A stretch of DNA of 64,000 nucleotides from Desulfohalovibrio reitneri. GTDB taxonomy: Bacteria; Desulfobacterota; Desulfovibrionia; Desulfovibrionales; Desulfovibrionaceae. Shown here piece by piece: positions 15,566 through 27,603 of the stretch; position 1 is the stretch's first letter, and each line of letters opens with the position of its first letter. The DNA is taken from contig NZ_JOMJ01000003.1 of the NCBI RefSeq assembly GCF_000711295.1, positions 2,429,501-2,493,500 on the forward strand. The letters are read 5' to 3'. The notes below the pieces were generated by a model. That model was given only the letters and a program-made list of their open reading frames with translations. It ran no database searches and had not been told where the DNA came from. The position numbers were made by a program, and so were the translations under genes.

Positions 15566-18500
15566 ATGGATTGCAATCGAAGGGATTTCCTCAAGCTGGT
15601 GGGCACAGGCGTGGCAGGCCTGAGCTTGGCCCACCTCGGCTTCGATATCAGGCCGGTTGAGGCATACGCTGCCGGGCTGAAGATCGAGGGCGCCAAAGAA
15701 GTGATCACCGTATGCCCCTTCTGCTCGGTGAGTTGCCACATCGTGGCCTACGTCAAGAATGGCAAGCTCGTGAGCACCGAAGGCGACCCGGACTATCCCA
15801 TCAACCAAGGGGCGCTGTGCTCCAAAGGCGCGGCCATGCTGACCATGACCCGCAACAAGCACCGTCTGACCATGCCTCTCTATCGCGCCCCCCACTCGGA
15901 CAAATGGGAAGAAAAGTCCTGGGAGTGGACCCTGACCGAGATCGCCAAGCGGGTGAAAAAAACTCGCGACAGCCGACTGGTCTTCAAGAATGAGAAAGGC
16001 AACACCGTAAACCGCCTGGACGCCATGTTCCTGCTCGGCACGTCCCATGCCGACAACGAGGAATGCGCCCTGGCGCACCAAGCCATGAGAAGCCTGGGTG
16101 TCGTCCACATGGACCACCAGGCACGTATCTGACACAGCGCCACTGTTGCGGCTCTGGGAGAGTCGTTCGGACGCGGCGCGATGACAAACCACTGGATCGA
16201 CATCAAGAATGCCGATGCGATCCTGATCATGGGCAGCAATGCTGCCGAACACCACCCCATTTCCTTCAAGTGGGTGCTCGACGCCAAGTACAACAAGAAC
16301 GCCACGGTCATGCATGTCGACCCCAAGTTCTCGCGTACTTCGGCGCGCTCCGACTTCCACGTGCCCTTGCGTTCCGGCACGGACGTCGCCTTTCTCGGGG
16401 GGATGGTAAACTACCTGCTCAACGAGCAAAAATACTACGACTTCTACGTCAAGGAGTACACAAACGCTTCCCTCATTGTGGGCGAGGACTACGCCTTCGA
16501 GGACGGCTTGTTCAGCGGGTTTGACCCGAAAACGCGCTCCTACGACAAGTCAAAGTGGGCCTTCGAGATGGACTCCGATGGCGTGCCAAAGCGAGACAAG
16601 AGCCTTGGACACCCCCGCTGCGTGTTCCAGCTCATGAAGAAGCACTACTCCCGCTACGACCTGGACACAGTCTCGTCCGTCACCGGTGTCTCCAAGGACA
16701 ACCTCATGCGGGTATACGAGGCCTACGCCAAAACGGGGAACGGCTCCAAGGCGGGCACCATCATGTACGCCCTGGGATGGACCCAGCATACCGTGGGCGT
16801 CCAGAACATCCGTTGCGCGGCCATCATCCAGCTCCTGCTGGGCAACATCGGCATCGCCGGAGGCGGCATCAACGCCCTGCGCGGCGAGCCCAACGTGCAG
16901 GGGTCCACGGACCACACTCTGCTCTACCACATCGTGCCTGGCTACATGGCCATGCCGCATGACGAGTGGCGGACTCTGGACGATTACCTCAAGGCCAACA
17001 CGCCGGTCAGCAACGACCCCACAAGCGCCAACTGGTGGCAGCACAAGCCCAAGTACTTCGTGAGCCTGCTCAAGGCCTGGTACGGCGATGCCGCCACCCC
17101 GGACAACGGCTACGGCTACGACTGGTTGCCAAAGATCGAGAAGGGCGGTGACTACTCTTACCTGCCGCTGTTCGACCGTATGTACAATGGCGAGATAGAA
17201 GGCGGCTTCATCATCGGCCTCAACCCAATGCAGAGCGTGCCCAATTCCAACAAGATTCGGGCCGCGCTGGATAAACTTGACTGGCTGGTGACTTCGGAAC
17301 TGCACCATTCCGAAACTACGGACAACTGGAACCGACCAGGCGTGGACCCCAAGGACGTCAAGACCGAGGTGTTCCTGCTTCCTTCCGCCCACCGGGTGGA
17401 GAAGGAAGGCACTGTGACCAACTCCGGCCGCTGGCTTCTGTGGCACTACAAGGCCATTGATCCTCCGGGGCAGGCTAGAACCTTCGGCGAGATGTTCGTG
17501 GGCATCATGAACAAGCTCAGGGAGATGTACAAGCTGGAGGGCGGCGCCCTGCACCAGGCCGTGACCGAGCTCGACTGGCCGCGCACCTACGACCCCGAAG
17601 CCGTTACCCGTAAAATCAATGGCGTCTTCACCAAGGACACCAATGTGGGCGGCAAGGTGTACAGGAAGGGGCAGTTGGTGCCTTCCTTCACCGCCCTCAA
17701 GGACGACGGATCCACCATGAGCCTGAACTGGCTCTACACCGGCAGCTACACCGAGGAGGAAGGCAACAAGTCCAAGCGGCGCGACCCCTCCCAGACCGCC
17801 ATGCAAAAGAAGATCGGCCTGTTCCCCAACTGGAGCTGGTGCTGGCCTGTTAACCGGCGCATCCTCTACAACCGCGCCTCGGTGGATCTGCAGGGCAACC
17901 CGCTGAACAAGGAACAGCCCACAATCTCCTGGACCGGCGACTCCTGGGCGGGCGACGTACCCGACGGCGGTTGGCCGCCCATGGCCTCCGGCAAGGGCAG
18001 GTACCCCTTCATCATGACTGTGCACGGCTTTGGGCAGCAATACGGGCCGGGACGGGCCGACGGCCCCTTCCCCGAGCACTACGAGCCAGTGGAGACCCCG
18101 GTGGACTCCAATCCGTTCTCCAAGCAACTCAGCAGCCCGGTGTTCAAGTCCGTGAACAGCGACATGGACAAGCTGGCCAAGGCGGGTGACCCCAATTACC
18201 CCATCGTACTCACCACTTACAACGTGTGCGAGCACTGGTGCGGTGGTGGCGAGACCCGCAACGTGCCCAACCTGCTGGAGACCGAACCCCAGCTCTATGT
18301 GGAAATCAGCCCCGAGCTGGCCAAGGAGAAAGGCATCAAGAACGGCGAGGGCGTCATCGTGCAGAGTGCGCGCGCCGAGGTCGAAGCCATTGCCATGGTT
18401 ACGGTGCGCATGCGTCCACTGCAGGTGCACGGCCGGGTCATCCATGAGATCGGGATGCCCTACTGCTTCGGCTGGAAAACCCCCGGAGTCGGCGACTCCA

Positions 18501-18610
18501 CCAACAGGCTCACGCCATCGGTGGCTGATCCCAACACCACCATTCCGGAGTTCAAGGCCTGTTGCGTGAATATTCGCAAGGCGGACAAGCTGACCGAGCT
18601 TGCCACCTGA
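15566..18610 (+). CDS. fdhA: Formate dehydrogenase alpha subunit, selenoprotein (UGA at 16130-16132 read as Sec)
   Basis: One frame runs from 15566 to 18610 (1014 residues) with a single in-frame TGA at codon 189. The TGA falls where the active-site Cys/Sec lies in this family (HQARI-U-HSATVA). The product is the catalytic Mo/W-bis-MGD subunit that oxidises formate to CO2 or reduces CO2. A Tat signal is seen (NRRDFLKLVG, residues 4-13), so it is exported with its partner. One [4Fe-4S] cluster is bound by C50, C53, C57 and C85. The C-terminal molybdopterin-binding domain is intact. A GGAGGAGG site precedes the ATG. fdhB follows 56 bases downstream. It resembles the periplasmic FdhAB of Desulfovibrio; no cytochrome subunit gene is nearby. 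Confidence 0.95.
16130..16170 (+). promoter_or_regulatory. SECIS-like element downstream of the fdhA UGA codon
   Basis: From 14 to 24 bases after the UGA the sequence TTGCGGCTCTG nearly matches TTGCAGGTCTG, the apical part of the E. coli fdhF SECIS, at the same distance. A short stem GGCTCT/AGAGTC closes at 16150-16164, though I cannot verify the full fold. It would bind SelB to insert selenocysteine. Confidence 0.7.
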
Positions 18611-18666: not shown

Positions 18667-19413
18667 ATGCCGAAGGTGTTCCTGATTGACACGTCCCGCT
18701 GCACCGCTTGCCGCGGGTGCCAGTTGGCCTGCAAGGAGTGGCACGAGCTCGAGCCGAATACGACCTACCAGTACGGCTGGGGCAGCCACCAGAATCCCAA
18801 GGACCTCAACCCCAACAATTACAAGTTGGTCCGCTTCATCGAGCACATGGACGGCGACGGCGTGGTGCGGTGGAATTTCTTCCCCGACCAGTGCCGCCAT
18901 TGCGTCATGCCCCCGTGCAAGGACGCGGCCGACATGTACATGGAAGGGGCGATCATCAAGGACGATAAGACGGGCGCGGTGCTCTTCACCGGCAAAACGT
19001 CCATGCTCTCGCGCGAAGCTTACGAGGTGGTGCGCGACGCCTGCCCCTACGACATTCCCCGCCGCGACATCGCCTCGGGCATGCTCAGCAAGTGCACCAT
19101 GTGCATCGACCGGGTACGCGCCGGCATGCTGCCCGCTTGCGTCAAGGTTTGTCCAACCGGAGCCATGAACTTCGGTGAGCGCGACAAGATGCTGGACCTG
19201 GCGGACGAACGCCTGAAGATCGCCAGAAGGAAGTATCCCGAAGCCATGCTGGCGGACGCCAGGGATGTGAACGTGATATTCCTGCTGACGGACAAGCCCG
19301 AGAACTATTGGAAGAACAGCGTGGCCAGCGCCTCCCCGCGCGGTTTGAACCGCAAGCGATTCCTGGCCGGACTGACCGAACCGCTACGCAGGGTGATCCC
19401 CTCGCGCGGCTAG
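18667..19413 (+). CDS. fdhB: Formate dehydrogenase beta (iron-sulfur) subunit
   Basis: A 248-residue ferredoxin-type electron-transfer subunit. Cys clusters in order: CTACRGCQLACKEW near residue 12, CRHCVMPPCKDA near 78, CPYDIPRR near 125 and CTMCIDRVRAGMLPACVKVCP near 140, enough for three to four [4Fe-4S] clusters. There is no signal peptide, so it would be exported with the Tat-bearing alpha subunit. It passes electrons from FdhA to a periplasmic cytochrome c3 in Desulfovibrio-type systems. An AAGGAGG site precedes the ATG. There is no C-terminal membrane helix, unlike E. coli FdnH, which supports a soluble enzyme. Confidence 0.93.
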   Translation: MPKVFLIDTSRCTACRGCQLACKEWHELEPNTTYQYGWGSHQNPKDLNPNNYKLVRFIEHMDGDGVVRWNFFPDQCRHCVMPPCKDAADMYMEGAIIKDDKTGAVLFTGKTSMLSREAYEVVRDACPYDIPRRDIASGMLSKCTMCIDRVRAGMLPACVKVCPTGAMNFGERDKMLDLADERLKIARRKYPEAMLADARDVNVIFLLTDKPENYWKNSVASASPRGLNRKRFLAGLTEPLRRVIPSRG

Positions 19414-19519
19414 GTTCTTGAGGAAAGGAAAAGTCCGCACTTGGCCCAGGGAGCGCCGGGCAACAGGCCCGGCGCCCCCCAGGGCCGCGAACGCACCAGC
19501 CACGGGAGGCAGCCGCCCC

Positions 19520-20470
19520 ATGACCGAGACCCCCGTCATTTCCGGCCCCGAGACCGTCAGCCAAACCATCGAACGATACGCTTCACAACGCCCGCAAATG
19601 GAGCCCATCCTGCGTGCCTTCGAGTCCCCTCTGCGCGAACGCGCCAAGTTACGGGAAGAGTTTGCTCGGGATTCCCTGGATCTCTCCGGCATCGACTGTT
19701 CCCGGCTGGTAGGGGGCGATACGGGCGCACCGCTTTTGGCCGGGGTGGATCTGGCTTTCCTCGCCAGATGGATCGAGCGTTCGGCCTCGGCCCTGCTGCC
19801 GCTGTTGCAGCGTGCCATGCCGGACAGCCAGGAGCTTGACCGCATCGCCGAGGCCGCATCCGGGAAAGGCCTGGACCTGAAGGCCTGCGGCCGCATGCTT
19901 CTGGACGGCGACCGCGCCTCCCTGGAGCGCGAGGCGGAAGTCTTCGGTGTATCCCCGGCCATGTTGGAGTTCACGCTGGCCGAAATCCTGGCGGCCCCAT
20001 TGGCGTCGCTGACGGACCAGCTTCAGGAGAAATTGCATGAGGCCTCTTGGCGGCAAGGCGTCTGTCCGGTCTGCGGTTCCTTCCCCTCAGTGGCTTGCCT
20101 GGGCAGGCCGGAAACGGTGGAGCTGGACTCCCTGGTTGGCGGCGGTGGACAAAAGTACCTGCACTGTTCGCTGTGCGGCCACGACTGGCGATACCGCCGC
20201 GACGCGTGTCCGGCCTGCGAAAACGCCGACCCGGGAACAAGAGAGATGCACCACGCGGTCAAGGCGCGGCAGGAACGAATCGAGGCCTGCACCAAGTGCG
20301 GTGCCTACTTCCTGTGTATCGACCTGCGGGAGTATGCCGAGGACCCTGACCTGTCCGTCGCCCCCCTGGCTCTTATGCATCTTGATATCATCGCCTCGGG
20401 CAAAGGGTATAGGCCCCTGGCCCCGGCCCCTTGGAACACCTTCCCCGCCAGGGAGGCGGAAGGGGCATGA
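19520..20470 (+). CDS. fdhE: Formate dehydrogenase accessory protein FdhE
   Basis: 316 residues from the ATG at 19520, chosen because GGGAGG precedes it; the frame is open further upstream to 19418. FdhE is a rubredoxin-like zinc or iron protein needed to make active formate dehydrogenase. The four CxxC motifs of the family are present in order: CPVCGSFP, CSLCGHDW, CPACENAD and CTKCGAYF (about residues 180-265). The gene lies 106 bases after fdhB and its stop overlaps the fdhD start (ATGA), so the pair is translationally coupled. Confidence 0.92.
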   Translation: MTETPVISGPETVSQTIERYASQRPQMEPILRAFESPLRERAKLREEFARDSLDLSGIDCSRLVGGDTGAPLLAGVDLAFLARWIERSASALLPLLQRAMPDSQELDRIAEAASGKGLDLKACGRMLLDGDRASLEREAEVFGVSPAMLEFTLAEILAAPLASLTDQLQEKLHEASWRQGVCPVCGSFPSVACLGRPETVELDSLVGGGGQKYLHCSLCGHDWRYRRDACPACENADPGTREMHHAVKARQERIEACTKCGAYFLCIDLREYAEDPDLSVAPLALMHLDIIASGKGYRPLAPAPWNTFPAREAEGA

Positions 20471-21228
20471 CCACGTGCATACGGACCGTGTTGCGCCATT
20501 ACCGCAACGCCGTTGAGCCGGTGGAGGACACCCTGGCCGAGGAGCACTGCCTGGCGGTCGTGGTTGATGATGCCGAGTCAGTGCGCACCATGAGTACGCC
20601 GGGCGAGGACGAGGAGTTGGTGCTCGGTCATCTGTTCACAGAGGGACGCATACGTCGTCCCAGGGACGTGCGCTCCATGCGCTTCCACTACCCTGGCAAA
20701 GGGAGAACGGTTGCCGAGGTGGAACTGGCCCCGGAAGCTGGTGACGGTCGACCGGTTTCGCTACCAAGTGGCGCCTGTCTTGATGCCGGGGAGATATTTC
20801 GGCTGATGCGGAAGATGGAATCAATGCAGGCCGTCTTTCGTCGCACTGGGGCGACCCATTGCGCTGCGCTCTTTGACAAGGGCGGTCGCATCCTGTCCAT
20901 GGCCGAGGATATCGGACGACACAACGCCCTTGACAAAGTCATTGGCTCGGCGCTGCGCGACGGTCTACTGGACCGGGCGCTGGTGGCCACCATGAGTTCC
21001 CGCCTAAGCTGCGAGCTTGTTTGCAAGGCCGCGGCCGCTGGGCTGACCTTCCTGTGCGGCCTTTCCGTGGCCACAGGGTTGGCCGTGGACCTTGCCGCGG
21101 AGAAGGGCATCACCCTGGCTGGCAGGGTTCGGGACGGCCGCATGAACGTCTACTCCCACAGAGAACGGGTTCTTTGGCCGCAACAGCACGCCGAACCCGG
21201 CGGTCGACTCTGCGACTCCGCCTCCTGA
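20467..21228 (+). CDS. fdhD: Sulfurtransferase FdhD for formate dehydrogenase maturation
   Basis: 253 residues from the ATG that overlaps the fdhE stop. FdhD moves sulfur from a Cys desulfurase to the Mo/W cofactor of formate dehydrogenase. Family signatures are clear: the TGATHCAALFDKGGRI stretch, the EDIGRHNALDKVIG motif and the closing GRVRDGRMNVY. The usual CxxC is altered: the first Cys is kept (C104 in PSGACLDAG) but the second position is Ala107. E. coli FdhD has Cys121 and Cys124 here. A strong terminator follows at 21261-21294 and ends the fdhABED unit. Confidence 0.9.
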   Translation: MTTCIRTVLRHYRNAVEPVEDTLAEEHCLAVVVDDAESVRTMSTPGEDEELVLGHLFTEGRIRRPRDVRSMRFHYPGKGRTVAEVELAPEAGDGRPVSLPSGACLDAGEIFRLMRKMESMQAVFRRTGATHCAALFDKGGRILSMAEDIGRHNALDKVIGSALRDGLLDRALVATMSSRLSCELVCKAAAAGLTFLCGLSVATGLAVDLAAEKGITLAGRVRDGRMNVYSHRERVLWPQQHAEPGGRLCDSAS

Positions 21229-21294: not shown

Positions 21295-21432
21295 GCCAAA
21301 GCGTTTAACAGTTCTCCGCAGTGTGATTGTCCACGGAATTCGCCTTTGGGTAAGTTCAGGCAACACGACTGAAATGCCCGGGGTGCCGCCATCACGGAAG
21401 GCCCGGGCGTGAACGAATCAAACGGAGCGCCC

Positions 21433-23097
21433 ATGGATTCCATCACAAATGACCACGCGTCGCTACCCCGCATCGGTCCCCATGCCTTCGAGGAATACAT
21501 CCACATGGCAGAACAGTTCCACGGCTACGCCGCCCCGGGACTCATCCTGGGCGGCTTCATGGTTGCCGAGGTGCGGCGTAGGCTGCCGGAGAGCATTCTC
21601 TACGACGCGATCTCAGAGACCGCCTGGTGCATGCCGGACGCCATCCAGATGCTCACCCCCTGCACCATCGGCAACGGCTGGCTGAAAGTATTCAACCTCG
21701 GCCTGTACGCTCTCTGCTTGTACGACAAGGCCACGGGAGAGGGCGTGCGGGCCGCGGTGGACCCATCCAGAATTGGTCCGTACCCGGCCATCGGTGAGTG
21801 GTTATACAAACTCAAGCCCAAAAAGGAGCAGGACAGCGCCAGGCTGCGCGAAGAGATGCGCTTGGCCGGGCACACCATCTGCGACTTCCGTCGCATCACG
21901 GTCAAGCCGGATGTCATGCGGCCCCGGGGGAAGGGGCACATAGGCACCTGCCGCAACTGCGGCCAGCCCTATCCCTGTCGCGACGGAGCGGTCTGCCGCG
22001 CCTGCCAAGGGGAGTCGCCATACGACGATTTTTTGGCCGCGCGGGAGGAGCGTTTTCCCGAAGGCCCCAAGCTTCGCGTCATGGAAGCCGGCGAAGCCAT
22101 CGGCAAGACCCTGCTCCACGATATGACCGGCATCGAGCCGGGGCGGAGTAAAGGGGCTGTTTTCAAGCGCAAGCAGCGAGTGGAGGTGGAGGACGTCTGC
22201 CAACTGCAGCGGCTAGGTCGATACAGCGTGTATGTGGAGGAAGGGCAGAGACTGGACCCGGACTGGATTCACGAGGACGAGGCCGCCCGTGCCATGGCCG
22301 GAACGTTGGCGGGAGACGGTGTGGACATAGCCCCAGAAGTCCGCGAGGGCAAGGCTGTGCTCCGAGCCGGGATGGATGGACTGTTGCTGGTGGATGTCGT
22401 CGGACTGGAACGGTTCAACCGAACCCCAGGGGTCATATGCGCCAGCAGGCAGACCGGCTCTTTGGTGAACGCCGGGCAGGAGGTTGCGGCCGCCCGGGCC
22501 ATTCCCCTCTACCTGGAGCGCGAGCAGTTGGAGCGAGCCGTGGAGAGTCTGGACGGTCCGGCTGTGCGGGTGGCCGCGTTGCGACCACGCGGCGTGGGAG
22601 TGCTGGTCACGGGAACCGAGGTCTTTCAGGGGCTGGTCAACGACAGGTTCGCGCCCATCGTGCGAGCCAAGGTTGAAGCCATGGGCTGCAGGGTGGTGGC
22701 AACCGAGATTGCCCCGGATGACAGGAATTGCATCGCGGGCGCGGTGCGCTCAATGCTGGAACGGGGAGCGGAGTTGATCGTGACCACCGCGGGGCTGTCT
22801 GTGGATCCCGAAGACGTGACACGAAAGGGGCTGGAGGATGCCGGTGCAAGGGACATGCTCTACGGACTGCCGGTGTTGCCGGGCGCAATGAGCCTGGTGG
22901 CCAAGGTGGAGGAGAGCCGCATCATTGGCGTACCCGCCTGCGCTCTGTATTTCCGCACCACGGGCTTCGACGTTCTGCTGCCGCGCGTCCTGGCCGATCT
23001 GGAGATAACCCGCAGCGATCTGGCCGCTCTGGGCCACGGCGGCCTCTGCCACAACTGCAAGAACTGCACTTATCCCAAGTGCGGCTTCGCTAAATGA
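21433..23097 (+). CDS. FmdE-domain protein fused to a MoeA-like molybdopterin-binding domain
   Basis: 554 residues from the ATG at 21433, chosen because GGAG lies 6 bases upstream; a GTG at 21409 is an alternative. Residues 1-165 match FmdE, found with molybdenum/tungsten enzymes such as formylmethanofuran dehydrogenase (HMAEQFHGYAAPGLILGG, TPCTIGNGWLKV). A zinc-ribbon-like CRNCGQPYPCRDGAVCRAC follows. Residues 215-530 resemble MoeA/MogA molybdopterin-binding folds (GVGVLVTGTEVFQGLVNDRF, LIVTTAGLSVDPEDVT, GLPVLPGAMSLVAKV). The C-terminus ends in CHNCKNCTYPKCGF, a possible metal site. Its place next to fdh and a ModE-type regulator suggests Mo/W cofactor insertion or sensing for formate dehydrogenase; that role is inferred. 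Confidence 0.82.
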   Translation: MDSITNDHASLPRIGPHAFEEYIHMAEQFHGYAAPGLILGGFMVAEVRRRLPESILYDAISETAWCMPDAIQMLTPCTIGNGWLKVFNLGLYALCLYDKATGEGVRAAVDPSRIGPYPAIGEWLYKLKPKKEQDSARLREEMRLAGHTICDFRRITVKPDVMRPRGKGHIGTCRNCGQPYPCRDGAVCRACQGESPYDDFLAAREERFPEGPKLRVMEAGEAIGKTLLHDMTGIEPGRSKGAVFKRKQRVEVEDVCQLQRLGRYSVYVEEGQRLDPDWIHEDEAARAMAGTLAGDGVDIAPEVREGKAVLRAGMDGLLLVDVVGLERFNRTPGVICASRQTGSLVNAGQEVAAARAIPLYLEREQLERAVESLDGPAVRVAALRPRGVGVLVTGTEVFQGLVNDRFAPIVRAKVEAMGCRVVATEIAPDDRNCIAGAVRSMLERGAELIVTTAGLSVDPEDVTRKGLEDAGARDMLYGLPVLPGAMSLVAKVEESRIIGVPACALYFRTTGFDVLLPRVLADLEITRSDLAALGHGGLCHNCKNCTYPKCGFAK

Positions 23098-23110: not shown

Positions 23111-23539
23111 ATGAAGTCTCATTATCCCACCGTGCGGCTGAAACTTTGGCTGCAGGACGGTCAGGAGGTCGTATTTGGTACCGGGCGTGTACTTCTGTTG
23201 GACCGAATCGAACGGCATGGTTCCCTCAAGAAAGCCGCGAGCGACCTGGGCATGTCCTACCGCGCAGCCTGGGGCAAACTGAAGGCCACGGAAAAGGTTC
23301 TTGGCACGCAGTTGGTGGAGACGCGCAGCTGCAAGCGGAAGGGGTGTAGGCTGACCGAGGAAGGACGCAGGCTGCGCGACATGTTTAGGGAGTGGTTCGA
23401 CGCGGTGGAGCGGGATGCTTTGGACCACGCCGCGCGGATTTTCCCATGGCGTGTGCGGAGCTATTGCGATCAGGTTCCTTCCGCGTCCCTTAAGGCTGAG
23501 CAGGAACAGCGGCCCACGAGATTTCTGTGCGTCGAATGA
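23111..23539 (+). CDS. ModE-type winged-helix regulator without a molybdate-binding domain
   Basis: 142 residues. The N-terminal 110 match the ModE/LysR-type winged helix: VRLKLWLQDGQEVVFGTGRV, LLDRIERHGSLKKAASDLGMSYRAAWGKLK and LVETRSCKRKGCRLTEEGRRL. The molbindin half of full ModE (about 260 residues) is absent. GGAGGAGG precedes the start, and only 13 bases separate it from the upstream stop, so it is cotranscribed with the FmdE/MoeA-like gene. It probably tunes the fdh or cofactor genes to molybdate or tungstate; this is inferred from context. Confidence 0.8.
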   Translation: MKSHYPTVRLKLWLQDGQEVVFGTGRVLLLDRIERHGSLKKAASDLGMSYRAAWGKLKATEKVLGTQLVETRSCKRKGCRLTEEGRRLRDMFREWFDAVERDALDHAARIFPWRVRSYCDQVPSASLKAEQEQRPTRFLCVE

Positions 23540-23678: not shown

Positions 23679-23698
23679 TTATGTCTGTTTTGACATAA
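23679..23698. promoter_or_regulatory. Perfect dyad TTATGTC-N6-GACATAA, candidate operator
   Basis: The 7-bp arms lie at 23679-23685 and 23692-23698, 14 bases before the ATG at 23713 and after the ModE-type gene. A likely binding site for either neighbouring product. Confidence 0.5.
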
Positions 23699-23712
23699 CT
23701 AAACAAAGGCGT

Positions 23713-24543
23713 ATGGACGTAAGCAGCTTCAACCAATTGATATCCAGCGAGAATCGCGCGCGCAGATTCTTTTTGGGATTTTGCTGGAAAAACCATCAAC
23801 GGTTTTGTCCGCGATGCCGTGAGCGCAAGCTTTACCGCGTGGGTGACCGCAGGCGGTGCTCTCGCTGCATGTATACTTTCCACGACTTTAGCAGACGTTT
23901 CATCAAAGGATGCAACTTCACCTTTCGGCAGTGGCTTTGGTTTCTGAAACTGTATGAGCTGAACGTGCCCAGCAAGGAGATGGCCAGGCAACTCAAAGTG
24001 TCCTACGTCACCGTGCTCAAGGCAAGGGACATCACACGCAGGGCCATCTTGGCGCAGGCTCTGGATGCAAATAGTTACTATCGCCTGGGCATTCGCCCAG
24101 GCTCGGGGCGGAGAAAGGGCCGGCCAACCATGCGCAACTCCCCAGTCTTCGGCGTGCTGGATCTGGGAGGGTACGTCATCTGCGACCTCATGTCGGACTT
24201 AACCGTGGAGAACATACTCCATTTCAAGCTCAATTTCTGTTTGAAGACATCGCATTTGGGGCAACTGGTATATACCTCACCCTACCAGAAATACACCGCC
24301 CTGACGGCCTGCGGTCCGGACCTATGGACTACGAACTTCATACGCCACGGGGACACGCGCATCCCGGTGGATGCAACGGATTTTTGGCGTGACGTCAAGG
24401 CGCGCCTGCGCTCTGTGCGCGGGGTTAACCCGACCACCTTCCCCTTATACCTCAAGGAGTGGGAGTTGCGGTTCAACAACCGCGGTGAGAGCCTCGTCCC
24501 GGTCTTGGCGGCCGCTCTGTGCGGCTTCGTGCCAAAAAGTTAA
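23713..24543 (+). CDS. IS1595-like transposase homologue, probably catalytically inactive
   Basis: 276 residues with the IS1595 layout: an N-terminal zinc ribbon (C32, C35, C49, C52 in FCPRC..RRCSRC), a helix-turn-helix-like region (NVPSKEMARQLKVSYVTVLK, about 84-103) and an ISXO2-like DDE domain ending in FPLYLKEWELRFNNRG. The first acid is kept (D118 in LDANSYYRLG). The expected second Asp is Ser189 (VYTSPYQKY where the family has TD-x-x-x-Y), and the expected Glu of I-E-x-F-W is Thr222 (VDATDFW). The frame is otherwise clean and no terminal repeats were found. It could be a decaying insertion sequence or a transposase taken over as a DNA-binding protein. Confidence 0.75.
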   Translation: MDVSSFNQLISSENRARRFFLGFCWKNHQRFCPRCRERKLYRVGDRRRCSRCMYTFHDFSRRFIKGCNFTFRQWLWFLKLYELNVPSKEMARQLKVSYVTVLKARDITRRAILAQALDANSYYRLGIRPGSGRRKGRPTMRNSPVFGVLDLGGYVICDLMSDLTVENILHFKLNFCLKTSHLGQLVYTSPYQKYTALTACGPDLWTTNFIRHGDTRIPVDATDFWRDVKARLRSVRGVNPTTFPLYLKEWELRFNNRGESLVPVLAAALCGFVPKS

Positions 24544-24870: not shown

Positions 24871-24944
24871 TATCCTGCCCCCAGTTTGAAACAGCCTTGA
24901 TTTAAGTGGAAGTCCGTGGCTTCTCAACAGGCAGGAGGTTTGCC

Positions 24945-25217
24945 ATGAAGCGACGGAAGTGGACCCCGGAGCAGAAGACTCGGGTCGTCCTCGAAGGCCT
25001 TCGAGGACGACCCGTGGGCGAAGTGTGCGCCGAGTACGCCATCTCGCAGAACCAGTACTACAAGTGGCGCGATCAATTCCTTGCCCAGGCGCACAAAGCG
25101 TTCGAGACCGAGCACGGCGCACAGCGTACGGCCAAGCTTGAGCGCGAGAACATGAAGCTCAAAAGCCTGATCGGTGAGTTGACCATTGAGCTAAAAAAAA
25201 GCGGGCCGTTCGGATGA
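24945..25217 (+). CDS. IS3 transposase OrfA (helix-turn-helix, InsE-like)
   Basis: 90 residues from the ATG at 24945 with GGAGG upstream. The helix-turn-helix region is KTRVVLEGLRGRPVGEVCAE followed by YAISQNQYYKWRDQFL. A leucine-zipper-like coil follows (TAKLERENMKLKSLIGELTIEL). It binds the element ends and is the N-terminal part of the OrfAB transposase. The stop overlaps the orfB start (ATGA at 25214-25217), and eight A at 25193-25200 just before the end allow the usual -1 frameshift. Confidence 0.9.
   Translation: MKRRKWTPEQKTRVVLEGLRGRPVGEVCAEYAISQNQYYKWRDQFLAQAHKAFETEHGAQRTAKLERENMKLKSLIGELTIELKKSGPFG
25193..25200 (+). promoter_or_regulatory. A8 slippery site for -1 frameshift between orfA and orfB
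   Basis: Eight consecutive A followed by G, 17 bases before the orfA stop. Slipping back one base joins orfA to orfB, the known way IS3 elements make the fused transposase. Confidence 0.75.
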
Positions 25218-25990
25218 AGCGTGGACCATATGCAAAGGTCGCCGAGCGCAACGCCGACCTCCTGGCCCGCATTCGCGGCATCAAGGCCGACCATCCGTTC
25301 TGGGGATACCGTCGGGTCTGGGCGTTTCTGCGCTTCGTGGACGGCGTAGTCGTCGGCAAAAATCGCGTCTACCGGCTCATGAGCGAGCATGACCTCACGG
25401 TGAAGCCCAACCTGCGACTCAAGGCCAAACGCAGGCCGACCGGCGTCAAGCCCCGGCCCACGCGACCCAACGAGTGGTGGGGTATCGACATGACCAAAAT
25501 CAAGATTGACGGCTACGGCTGGCTGTACGTGGTCATTGTGCTTGATTGGCGCACCAAGAAGGTCGTCGGCCATTACGCCGGCGACCAGGCCAAGGCGTGG
25601 CATTGGCTCTCGGCGCTCAACGCGGCTGTCGGCAGGCAGTTCCCCGAAGGCGTGCGCGACGGCGGTCTTCATCTCATGGCCGACAACGGCTGCCAGCCGA
25701 CCTCGGCGAGCTTCATGAAGGCTTGCCGCGTCATGGACATCAAACTCGCCTTCACCAGCTACAACAACCCAAAAGGCAATGCCGACACCGAGCGCTTCAT
25801 GCGCACCATGAAGGAAGAGCTGGTCTGGATTAATGAATGGCGTAGCCCGACGGCCTTTTGCCAAGCCTTGGGCTCCTGGATCGAAGAATACAACCAAGGC
25901 TACCTGCACTCGGCGCTGGGGTATAAAACCCCGGTGACAACCGAGCAGGAACTGATCAACTCGCGGACTCTCTTAAAAAAGGCTTGCTAA
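25214..25990 (+). CDS. IS3 transposase OrfB (rve integrase core)
   Basis: 258 residues with the IS150/IS3-type core. The HTH_21-like start is DHPFWGYRRVWAFLRF. The catalytic acids are seen in WWGIDMTKIKID, HLMADNGCQPTS and the Glu of YNNPKGNADTERFMRTMKEE. The C-terminal LHSALGYKTPVTTEQEL is the usual tail. It may be made as OrfAB by frameshift or on its own by coupling at the ATGA overlap. The gene is intact, so the element may be active. Confidence 0.92.
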   Translation: MKRGPYAKVAERNADLLARIRGIKADHPFWGYRRVWAFLRFVDGVVVGKNRVYRLMSEHDLTVKPNLRLKAKRRPTGVKPRPTRPNEWWGIDMTKIKIDGYGWLYVVIVLDWRTKKVVGHYAGDQAKAWHWLSALNAAVGRQFPEGVRDGGLHLMADNGCQPTSASFMKACRVMDIKLAFTSYNNPKGNADTERFMRTMKEELVWINEWRSPTAFCQALGSWIEEYNQGYLHSALGYKTPVTTEQELINSRTLLKKAC

Positions 25991-26742: not shown

Positions 26743-27603
26743 ATGAAGACTCATTTTCTCGCTTTGGCTCTGGTTCTCGCCTTGCTCCCGGCCCAAGCCT
26801 TCGGCTTCACCGTCACACCAAGCGCCGACGCCAACGCCCTGGCAGGAGCGCTGGTGGGCAGCGGCATCACCGTCAACAGCGTCAGCCTCGTCGGCACGTC
26901 CACCCAGCAGGGCTTCTTCTCGGGCGGCCTGGGCGCGGGCATCGGCATCGACACCGGCATCATCCTCACCTCCGGCTCCGCCGCCGGAGCGGCCACGCCC
27001 AACGACTCCGACGGCACGGCCACCAACATCGGCAGCGCCGGGTCGGCTGCCCTGGACGCCCTCATTCCGCAGTCCACCAACGACGCCAACATCCTCAACA
27101 TAGACTTCACCACCACCACAGGCGACATTTTCTTCCAGTACGTCTTCGCCTCGGAAGAATACAACGAGTACGTCAACTCCTCCTTCAACGACGTATTCGC
27201 CTTCTTCCTCGACGGCACCAACATCGCCCTCATCCCCGGCACGTCCAACCCCGTGTCCATCAACAACGTCAACAACGGCGCCAACTCGGCCTATTACAAT
27301 GACAATGACTTCGGCGACTTCGGCGGCTCGACTCCCTTCGCCATCGAGTACGACGGCTTCACCACCGTCCTCACCGCCCAGCAACTCGGCCTCTCCGCCG
27401 GAACGCACACCCTCTCCCTGCAAATCGCCGACGCCGGCGACACGACCCTCGACTCCGCCGTGTTCATCGCCGGCGGCTCCTTCTCCGGCCAGGATCCCAG
27501 CAACGGCCAGAACGCCATCCCCGAACCCGGCACCCTCGCCCTGCTGATCGGCGGCCTGGGACTCCTCGGTCTCAACCGCTACCGCAACCGCAATCGCGGA
27601 TGA
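26743..27603 (+). CDS. PEP-CTERM sorted surface protein with choice-of-anchor L-type domain
   Basis: 286 residues. A signal peptide at 1-21 (MKTHFLALALVLALLPAQAFG) is followed by a Ser/Thr/Asn/Gly-rich beta-type domain with the motif FFQYVFASEEYNEYVNSSFN and FLDGTNIALIPG, as in choice-of-anchor L proteins. The C-terminus is a PEP-CTERM signal: IPEPGT, a hydrophobic helix (LALLIGGLGLLGL) and a basic tail (NRYRNRNRG). Such proteins are cut by an exosortase and exported with exopolysaccharide; the exosortase must be encoded elsewhere. A strong terminator follows 16 bases after the stop. Confidence 0.88.
   Translation: MKTHFLALALVLALLPAQAFGFTVTPSADANALAGALVGSGITVNSVSLVGTSTQQGFFSGGLGAGIGIDTGIILTSGSAAGAATPNDSDGTATNIGSAGSAALDALIPQSTNDANILNIDFTTTTGDIFFQYVFASEEYNEYVNSSFNDVFAFFLDGTNIALIPGTSNPVSINNVNNGANSAYYNDNDFGDFGGSTPFAIEYDGFTTVLTAQQLGLSAGTHTLSLQIADAGDTTLDSAVFIAGGSFSGQDPSNGQNAIPEPGTLALLIGGLGLLGLNRYRNRNRG

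Follow-up and report, generated by a model that had tools for sequence, protein, structure and literature searches.

An immobilised IS1595 transposase homologue beside formate dehydrogenase genes and its probable exaptation as a local regulator

The window analysed here, a 64,000-nucleotide stretch of the Desulfohalovibrio reitneri genome, encodes a 276-residue homologue of IS1595 transposases next to formate dehydrogenase (fdh) genes. The loss of its cutting residues and its long-term retention beside fdh are well supported. Based on sequence comparison, we propose that the protein is probably an immobilised, exapted transposase, which would act as a local transcription factor that reads the old ends of its element. 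Transposase and repeat ends have probably both been exapted, as regulator and operator, since a matrix derived from transposon ends finds 26 sites, 8 of them at places where the old ends never stood. The first-pass annotation of this DNA had suggested a domesticated, dead transposase working as a regulator near Mo/W-enzyme genes, and had pointed out a TTATGTC-N6-GACATAA dyad just before its start. The idea of a domesticated regulator is supported by the loss of the triad, the synteny with fdh, purifying selection and repeat-like sites at fdh promoters in several clades; the dyad more likely belongs to a separate regulator.

Gene neighbourhood and family membership

The reading frame of the homologue is open and uninterrupted, and genes of the fdhA, fdhB, fdhE, fdhD, FmdE-MoCF and ModE types all lie upstream of it on the same strand (Table 1). 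Both the clean frame and the ModE-type and formate dehydrogenase neighbours had been described in the first-pass annotation, and Pfam and NCBIfam searches recover these neighbours. Directly downstream of the homologue lies an IS3-type insertion element in two frames (window 24906-25990). Further on, at window 26743-27603, a choice-of-anchor L protein with a PEP-CTERM sorting signal is encoded.

Table 1. Features of the window around the transposase homologue.
Feature	Position	Strand	Basis
fdhA, in-frame TGA at ~16130	15566..18610	+	TGA presumably selenocysteine
fdhB-like iron-sulfur subunit	18667..19413	+	Pfam/NCBIfam
fdhE-like	19418..20470	+	Pfam/NCBIfam, under family cut-offs
fdhD	20431..21228	+	Pfam/NCBIfam
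FmdE-MoCF fusion gene	21409..23097	+	Pfam
ModE-type DNA-binding domain gene, no ligand domain recognised	23111..23539	+	Pfam/NCBIfam
Dyad TTATGTC-N6-GACATAA, probable Mo/W-regulator operator	23679..23698		exact match
Inner left transposon end relic, weak, TATGTCAAAACAGA, within dyad	23684..23697	-	score 8.0 at -29
IS1595-derived, non-catalytic transposase homologue, 276 aa	23713..24543	+	ORF; Pfam/NCBIfam; predicted structure, pLDDT 88.4
Zinc ribbon, residues 12-54	23746..23874	+	Pfam; C32, C35, C49, C52 invariant in aligned sets
HTH region, residues 65-113	23905..24051	+	predicted structure aligned to regulator HTHs, Z <=4.9, weak
D118, retained first catalytic Asp	24064..24066	+	invariant, 40 aligned sequences
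S189 at second catalytic Asp position	24277..24279	+	alignment
T222 at catalytic Glu position (INGLEGFW in transposon type)	24376..24378	+	alignment
Inner right transposon end relic, over last codons and stop, CGTGCCAAAAAGTT	24528..24541	+	matrix score 11.1

IS1595 transposases are prokaryotic relatives of Merlin. The homologue matches the Pfam family Zn_ribbon_IS1595 (PF12760) with 34.1 bits (cut-off 25.4, E 2.7e-8) and marginally passes DDE_Tnp_IS1595 (PF12762; 27.8 bits, cut-off 27). Against the NCBIfam IS1595 model NF033547 it scores 31.7 bits, far short of the cut-off of 75. In a joint alignment of relatives with 116 rows, D118, S189 and T222 occupy the triad columns, and V219 and T222 face the Asn and the Glu of the INGLEGFW motif. 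The D-D-E triad expected of an IS1595 transposase is therefore missing, as the first-pass annotation had read from Ser189 and Thr222. Some IS1595 subgroups carry Asn in place of the catalytic Glu.

The Glu and the INGLEGFW motif are found together in 18 relatives, the transposon type, which come from Syntrophaceae, Desulfobacterales, Synergistota, Planctomycetota and other hosts. D-D-E is present in 16 of them, NDE and DEE in the two others. The Desulfovibrionales-type relatives are without the catalytic Glu, with two exceptions: among the remaining 98 rows, only two from Solidesulfovibrio have it, and their nearest relatives carry Asp, Ala or Thr in that column. Members from Pseudodesulfovibrio have Asp there. 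In the tree, the transposon type forms a single starred group, which includes the divergent row L146, and the window's homologue groups with eight rows (L033-L035 and L067-L071). All eight have the second Asp replaced by Ala or Gly, so that this clade, with the Ser of the homologue itself, is also without the second Asp (9/9 rows).

The zinc ribbon, the HTH and the retained D118 named by the first-pass annotation are borne out by Pfam, by a weak structural alignment and by invariance, respectively: C32, C35, C49, C52 and D118 do not vary in 40 aligned sequences. The structure of the homologue is predicted confidently (mean pLDDT 88.4). A Foldseek search of this prediction against structure libraries gave no match at E 0.001. 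As no solved relative was found, the triad assignment rests on the sequence alignment. In a second structural comparison only HTH-sized matches were obtained (Z at most 4.9), with residues 65-113 on HTH domains of regulators and residues ~11-112 aligned, at low Z, with the Mos1 transposase. Antibody chains among the structural matches look like chance hits.

Distribution, synteny and selection

The genome of D. reitneri contains two further homologues, one 44% identical that adjoins a second fdh cluster and one 26% identical that adjoins cytochrome genes. Near-identical copies with terminal repeats, which the first-pass annotation had named as evidence against domestication, were looked for in the genome and none was found. 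At E 1e-15, homologues are present in 24 of 39 genomes (that of D. reitneri included), one or two in each, and none of these 35 matches contains a stop codon. A scan of 84,980 species genomes gave 179 confirmed relatives, of which 80 were kept. L078, L082, L087, L123 and L144 were dropped before counting as duplicates of stretches read from the genomes, and L146 was counted apart. Around each locus up to ~9 kb was read on either side.

Loci of the domesticated type, defined by the absence of the transposon-type active site, adjoin fdh genes in 71 of 92 cases, hcp/nrf-type cytochrome genes in 7 and topA in 5. None of the three is found at the other 9 loci, 6 of which are cut by contig ends. For the transposon type the count of fdh, hcp/nrf or topA neighbours is 0/18. 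A frequent gene order is fdhE-fdhD-mobA-moaA-[homologue]-fdhA-fdhB; the group nearest to the window's homologue mostly lies near a ModE-like gene and often also near an FmdE-MoCF gene.

The neighbourhoods show three further features. A second, more divergent line (L059, L060, L061, L062 and, in D. reitneri, L066) has, in three loci, hcp (Prismane) on one side and NrfH/NrfA on the other, and lies elsewhere by related multihaem cytochromes. In L042, L051, L080, L115 and L120 the neighbour is DNA topoisomerase I instead of fdh. Between homologue and fdhA, several genera encode a small conserved protein of ~70-110 residues with the motif LPFxGLGxDL ... LGREIRGR, recognised by eye (L101, L108, L055, L100; L213:1191-1490, minus strand). 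The one copy searched has no Pfam match.

The domesticated type is under strong purifying selection, with dN/dS values (Nei-Gojobori) of 0.007-0.19 in 22 pairs, some with saturated dS. More distant pairs give 0.28 for W-L067 (dS 1.22), 0.18 for W-L033 (dS 2.05) and 0.34 for L032-L084 (dS 0.64). Three pairs of the transposon type lie at 0.09-0.27; since this type is also under purifying selection, dN/dS excludes decay and by itself shows no new function. Relatives beside fdh genes and purifying selection are what the first-pass annotation had proposed to look for, and both are found: selection on the homologue is purifying, and its usual place is within a formate dehydrogenase cluster.

Transposon relatives and their ends

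We read 29 ends from 15 transposon-type elements. They open with GG, for example GGTAATTGATTAAGT...GGCACC, and their inner part, read outward, is about GGTGYCARAACTTG. The 12 elements flanked on both sides measure 897-908 bp, nine of them exactly 898 bp. The transposon type has paired inverted repeats, and perfect 8-bp target duplications are seen in 6 of the 12 testable elements. These duplications and the GG ends fit the expectation for IS1595, since PMC8101967 gives 8-bp duplications for the family and a terminal GG for the related Merlin elements. The copy number in metagenome bins is only 1-2, and the claim of mobility therefore rests on the ends and duplications.

The ~898-bp transposons L131, L134, L116 and L145 are 37-43% identical to the window's homologue and share its zinc ribbon, HTH and DDE_Tnp_IS1595-type domain; the inner sequence of their ends is similar to the fdh-associated sites described below. 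Unlike the homologue, they have an intact triad, intact ends starting with GG and 8-bp duplications. Unlike the domesticated type, they are spread over many phyla and show no fdh linkage.

The window copy has lost the outermost bases of its transposon ends. The first-pass annotation saw no terminal repeats, which holds for intact, GG-starting ends; degenerate inner relics are nevertheless present at both ancestral positions, with scores of 11.1 (right) and 8.0 (left) against a matrix of the ends. The right-end relic is the best match in 21 kb, and since the same bases encode a conserved FVP it is only partly independent evidence. Left-end relics of other loci mostly lie at -30/-31, that of the window copy at -29. 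With a score of at least 7 near the ancestral position, left-end relics occur at 13 of 92 loci; 100 permutations average 0.83 such loci and reach 4 at most. Codon choice over the old right end is also skewed towards the letters of the repeat, with CCA for Pro in 26/58 cases vs 74/727 elsewhere and GTG for Val in 44/55 vs 270/668; the loci are related by descent, and such codon tests and locus counts overstate independence. Among the strongest coding-end relics is a 20.6 match within the last codons of L066, the hcp/nrf-line homologue of D. reitneri. Matches near -50 in Humidesulfovibrio are in the ancestral left-end zone.

Sites resembling transposon ends at formate dehydrogenase promoters

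The matrix comprises the inner 14 positions of the 29 transposon-type ends and thus uses no fdh locus. The zone scanned at each of the 92 loci begins 1.5 kb before the gene and ends 0.6 kb after it, with full reading frames masked. At a score of at least 15 there are 26 matches at 20/92 loci in 8/40 clades; with 150 permuted matrices the number of matches averages 0.8 and never exceeds 8, and no more than 5 clades are reached. Ancestral end positions flanking the gene account for 18 of the 26. The other 8, from 5/40 clades, lie away from these positions, where permutations reached at most 4 clades. Off-position sites of this kind precede fdhE in Pseudodesulfovibrio (L100, L104, L122). In L091 and in loci of the Nitratidesulfovibrio type they lie in the interval between homologue and fdhA, and in L075 and L130 they are found 150-160 bases upstream of the homologue. 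At a cut-off of 13, 7 clades have sites off the end positions, a number equalled by 10 of 150 permutations. In 32/40 clades the scanned zone holds no site of at least 15, and no intergenic site of this score is present there in the hcp/nrf line.

The fdhE promoter of Pseudodesulfovibrio carries a conserved tandem, roughly GTGYCAAAnCTTGAGTAAGTGYCARAnCTTTGGCA, which in L104 reads GGTGTCAAAACTTGAGTAAGTGCC and can be compared with the transposon end of L139, GGTGCCAAAACTTGAGTAATTACC. Some of the sites before fdhE are ~1 kb away from the homologue. In G028, where the homologue lies by topA, both fdhA genes are on other contigs and have sites of 17.5 and 10.9 ~300 bp upstream. The second fdh cluster of D. 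reitneri has its best match (14.4; the next is 8.9) at the upstream end of fdhE. This site and one in G009 fall within the longest reading frame that the following gene could have, before likelier starts. Of 55 fdhA promoters, a score of 15 is reached by 1/18 adjacent to a homologue, 4/27 non-adjacent ones and 0/10 in genomes without a homologue, and the difference between 4/27 and 0/10 is too small for significance. Permuted matrices reach a score of 12 at 0.7 of the 27 non-adjacent promoters on average, and at most at 2.

The pattern GTGYCAAANCTTGNGNAWG is partly circular because it was written after the matrix sites were known. It has 19 matches in the 39 genomes, 9 of them at fdh or homologue loci, including two homologue coding ends; the others are one by an iron-sulfur protein gene, 8 within other mechanical reading frames, and L210. 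An unguided k-mer ranking for sites returned only GC-rich or A-rich words. Enriched palindromes between homologue and fdhA (AGCAGAC-N7-GTCTGCT and others) were rejected, as they lie within the fdhA coding sequence. The inner transposon end, GTGYCAAAnCTTG, appears to be a better candidate for the protein's own site than the dyad.

The upstream dyad

The perfect dyad that the first-pass annotation placed 14 bases before the start is exact, and 14 bases do separate it from the ATG. Of 100 shuffled versions of the window, 25 contain a match with up to three mismatches; because loose matches are this common, the weight of the dyad lies in its exactness and its recurrence at related loci. Within one mismatch it is found at 13 of 92 homologue loci in 7 clades, and its reversed control at 0/92. 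Genome-wide, the same tolerance gives 35 matches in 19/39 genomes, against 21 for the reversed control, and with three mismatches D. reitneri has 21 against 17. By these counts the number alone is weak evidence, and the argument rests on gene context.

This context was read in 19 stretches with sites, with genes assigned by family searches in five and by eye in the others. In 12 of the 19 the dyad precedes a tungsten or molybdenum gene, in 7 it does not. The genes behind it encode aldehyde ferredoxin oxidoreductase, TupA, ModA, FmdE-MoCF, MoCF, FdhA and ModE-like proteins. In G008 and G019, two genomes without a homologue (E 1e-15), the dyad precedes aldehyde ferredoxin oxidoreductase, and a version with two mismatches precedes tupA-type genes. 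Within D. reitneri, one further copy with two mismatches lies between a tupA-like gene and fdhE, and another with one mismatch precedes a molybdopterin-domain/aldehyde-oxidoreductase-type operon; the genes were assigned by eye in both cases. In five of seven fdhE promoters of Pseudodesulfovibrio it is present with 2-3 mismatches and is followed, after 44-46 bases, by the repeat-like site.

Because the dyad stands before tungsten-enzyme genes in genomes without a homologue, we assign it to a separate Mo/W-responsive regulator, of which it is probably the operator. D. reitneri encodes a TunR-like candidate for a Mo/W regulator, with a Xer-like recombinase domain and a Mop/TOBE part, at G000:C3:22519-23670 (L204:6520-7671, minus strand). 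The dyad is perhaps bound by this TunR-like protein, or by a ModE-like protein. A dense Mo/W control region is seen in L185 (G016:C1:121000-136000), where five dyad-like sites with at most two mismatches fall within 8 kb, near MoCF, fdhD, fdhA and ModE-like genes, and one of them before a small HTH protein.

Discussion

In the mechanism that we propose, the zinc ribbon and HTH would bind GTGYCAAAnCTTG, the inner stretch of the former inverted repeats, which sometimes occurs in tandem. The homologue would thereby control transcription locally, both of its own gene and of operons of the fdhE and fdhA types, from a site next to, yet separate from, the Mo/W-responsive operator dyad. As only weak relics are present at the window copy, we infer its target site from the relatives.

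Does the immobilised protein regulate transcription at all? The gene may have been kept for another role, such as DNA bridging, insulation or Fdh maturation, with the repeat-like sites as leftovers of insertion. A zinc ribbon and an HTH suit other DNA-binding functions equally well, and 18 of the 26 strong sites are at ancestral end positions. We nevertheless regard this explanation as unlikely, as sites also stand ~1 kb off, before fdhE, and before non-adjacent fdhA, where old ends never lay. That the protein is an autoregulator or Mo/W regulator binding the dyad, as the first-pass annotation suggested, is improbable. The dyad is found beside 13/92 of the genes in 7 clades (reversed control 0/92), and its copy in the window overlaps the place where the left end once stood; however, it also precedes aldehyde ferredoxin oxidoreductase and, in a two-mismatch form, tupA in G008 and G019, where there is no homologue to bind it. 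Elsewhere it precedes modA, FmdE-MoCF and fdhA, and the TunR-like protein of D. reitneri, with its Xer-like and Mop domains, is a likelier binder.

The two remaining explanations concern the fate of the active site, and we give both very little credence. A decaying, dead transposase that hitch-hikes by fdh would account for the lost triad and the missing intact ends, but is already contradicted by low dN/dS, 0/35 stops, wide synteny and invariant cysteines. An enzyme that still nicks or recombines DNA would have to use other acids, for instance E249 and E251, which are invariant, or, in some clades, an Asp close to where the Glu once was, as the Asp in the Glu column of Pseudodesulfovibrio might suggest. 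Yet E249 and E251 are invariant also in the transposon type, which has its normal Glu as well, and the second acid is missing in 9/9 members of the query's clade. An exapted transposase that reads its old ends thus remains our preferred reading.

TunR is reportedly a Xer-recombinase-derived Mo/W regulator of sulfate reducers with a known regulon. As is proposed for the homologue described here, it is an enzyme of DNA mobility turned regulator, in the same organisms and with the same metal theme, and D. reitneri has a likely homologue of it. TunR belongs to another protein family, however, with a tyrosine recombinase fold and a Mop ligand domain, and Pfam and NCBIfam searches found neither Xer-like nor TOBE/Mop domains in the 276-residue protein. 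Animals and plants have well-known transcription factors that arose from transposases, and those derived from DDE transposases keep the DNA-binding domain of the transposase and have the old ends as target sites. The homologue would work alike; it differs in being bacterial and embedded in metabolic operons. TldR proteins derive from TnpB. According to PMC13418256, they are RNA-guided repressors and bacterial transcription factors, nuclease-dead transposon proteins exapted for this role, as is proposed for the homologue. Whereas TldR is guided by RNA, the homologue is DDE-derived, presumably recognises DNA as a protein and has candidate operators that resemble its own transposon ends. A literature search on titles and abstract openings found no description of a bacterial transcription factor made from a DDE transposase, nor of this transposase-derived family, and the available part of PMC8987985, a 2022 review on the recruitment of mobile elements, names no such bacterial factor.

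Taken together, we lean slightly towards the broader reading that a whole insertion sequence was exapted as a two-part bacterial regulatory system, in which the dead transposase would be the transcription factor and the inverted-repeat ends its operators. Operators would later have arisen at further promoters (fdhE, distant fdhA), and the system would have been kept across much of Desulfovibrionales as a layer of fdh control, with a second, paralogous line in hcp/nitrite-reductase-type clusters. Since some relatives are still transposons with intact ends, the passage from mobile element to gene switch can be traced residue by residue and base by base. To family models such genes resemble transposases and are easily dismissed; here, one of them is a candidate for the control of formate dehydrogenases, which are tungsten/molybdenum enzymes that serve anaerobic metabolism.
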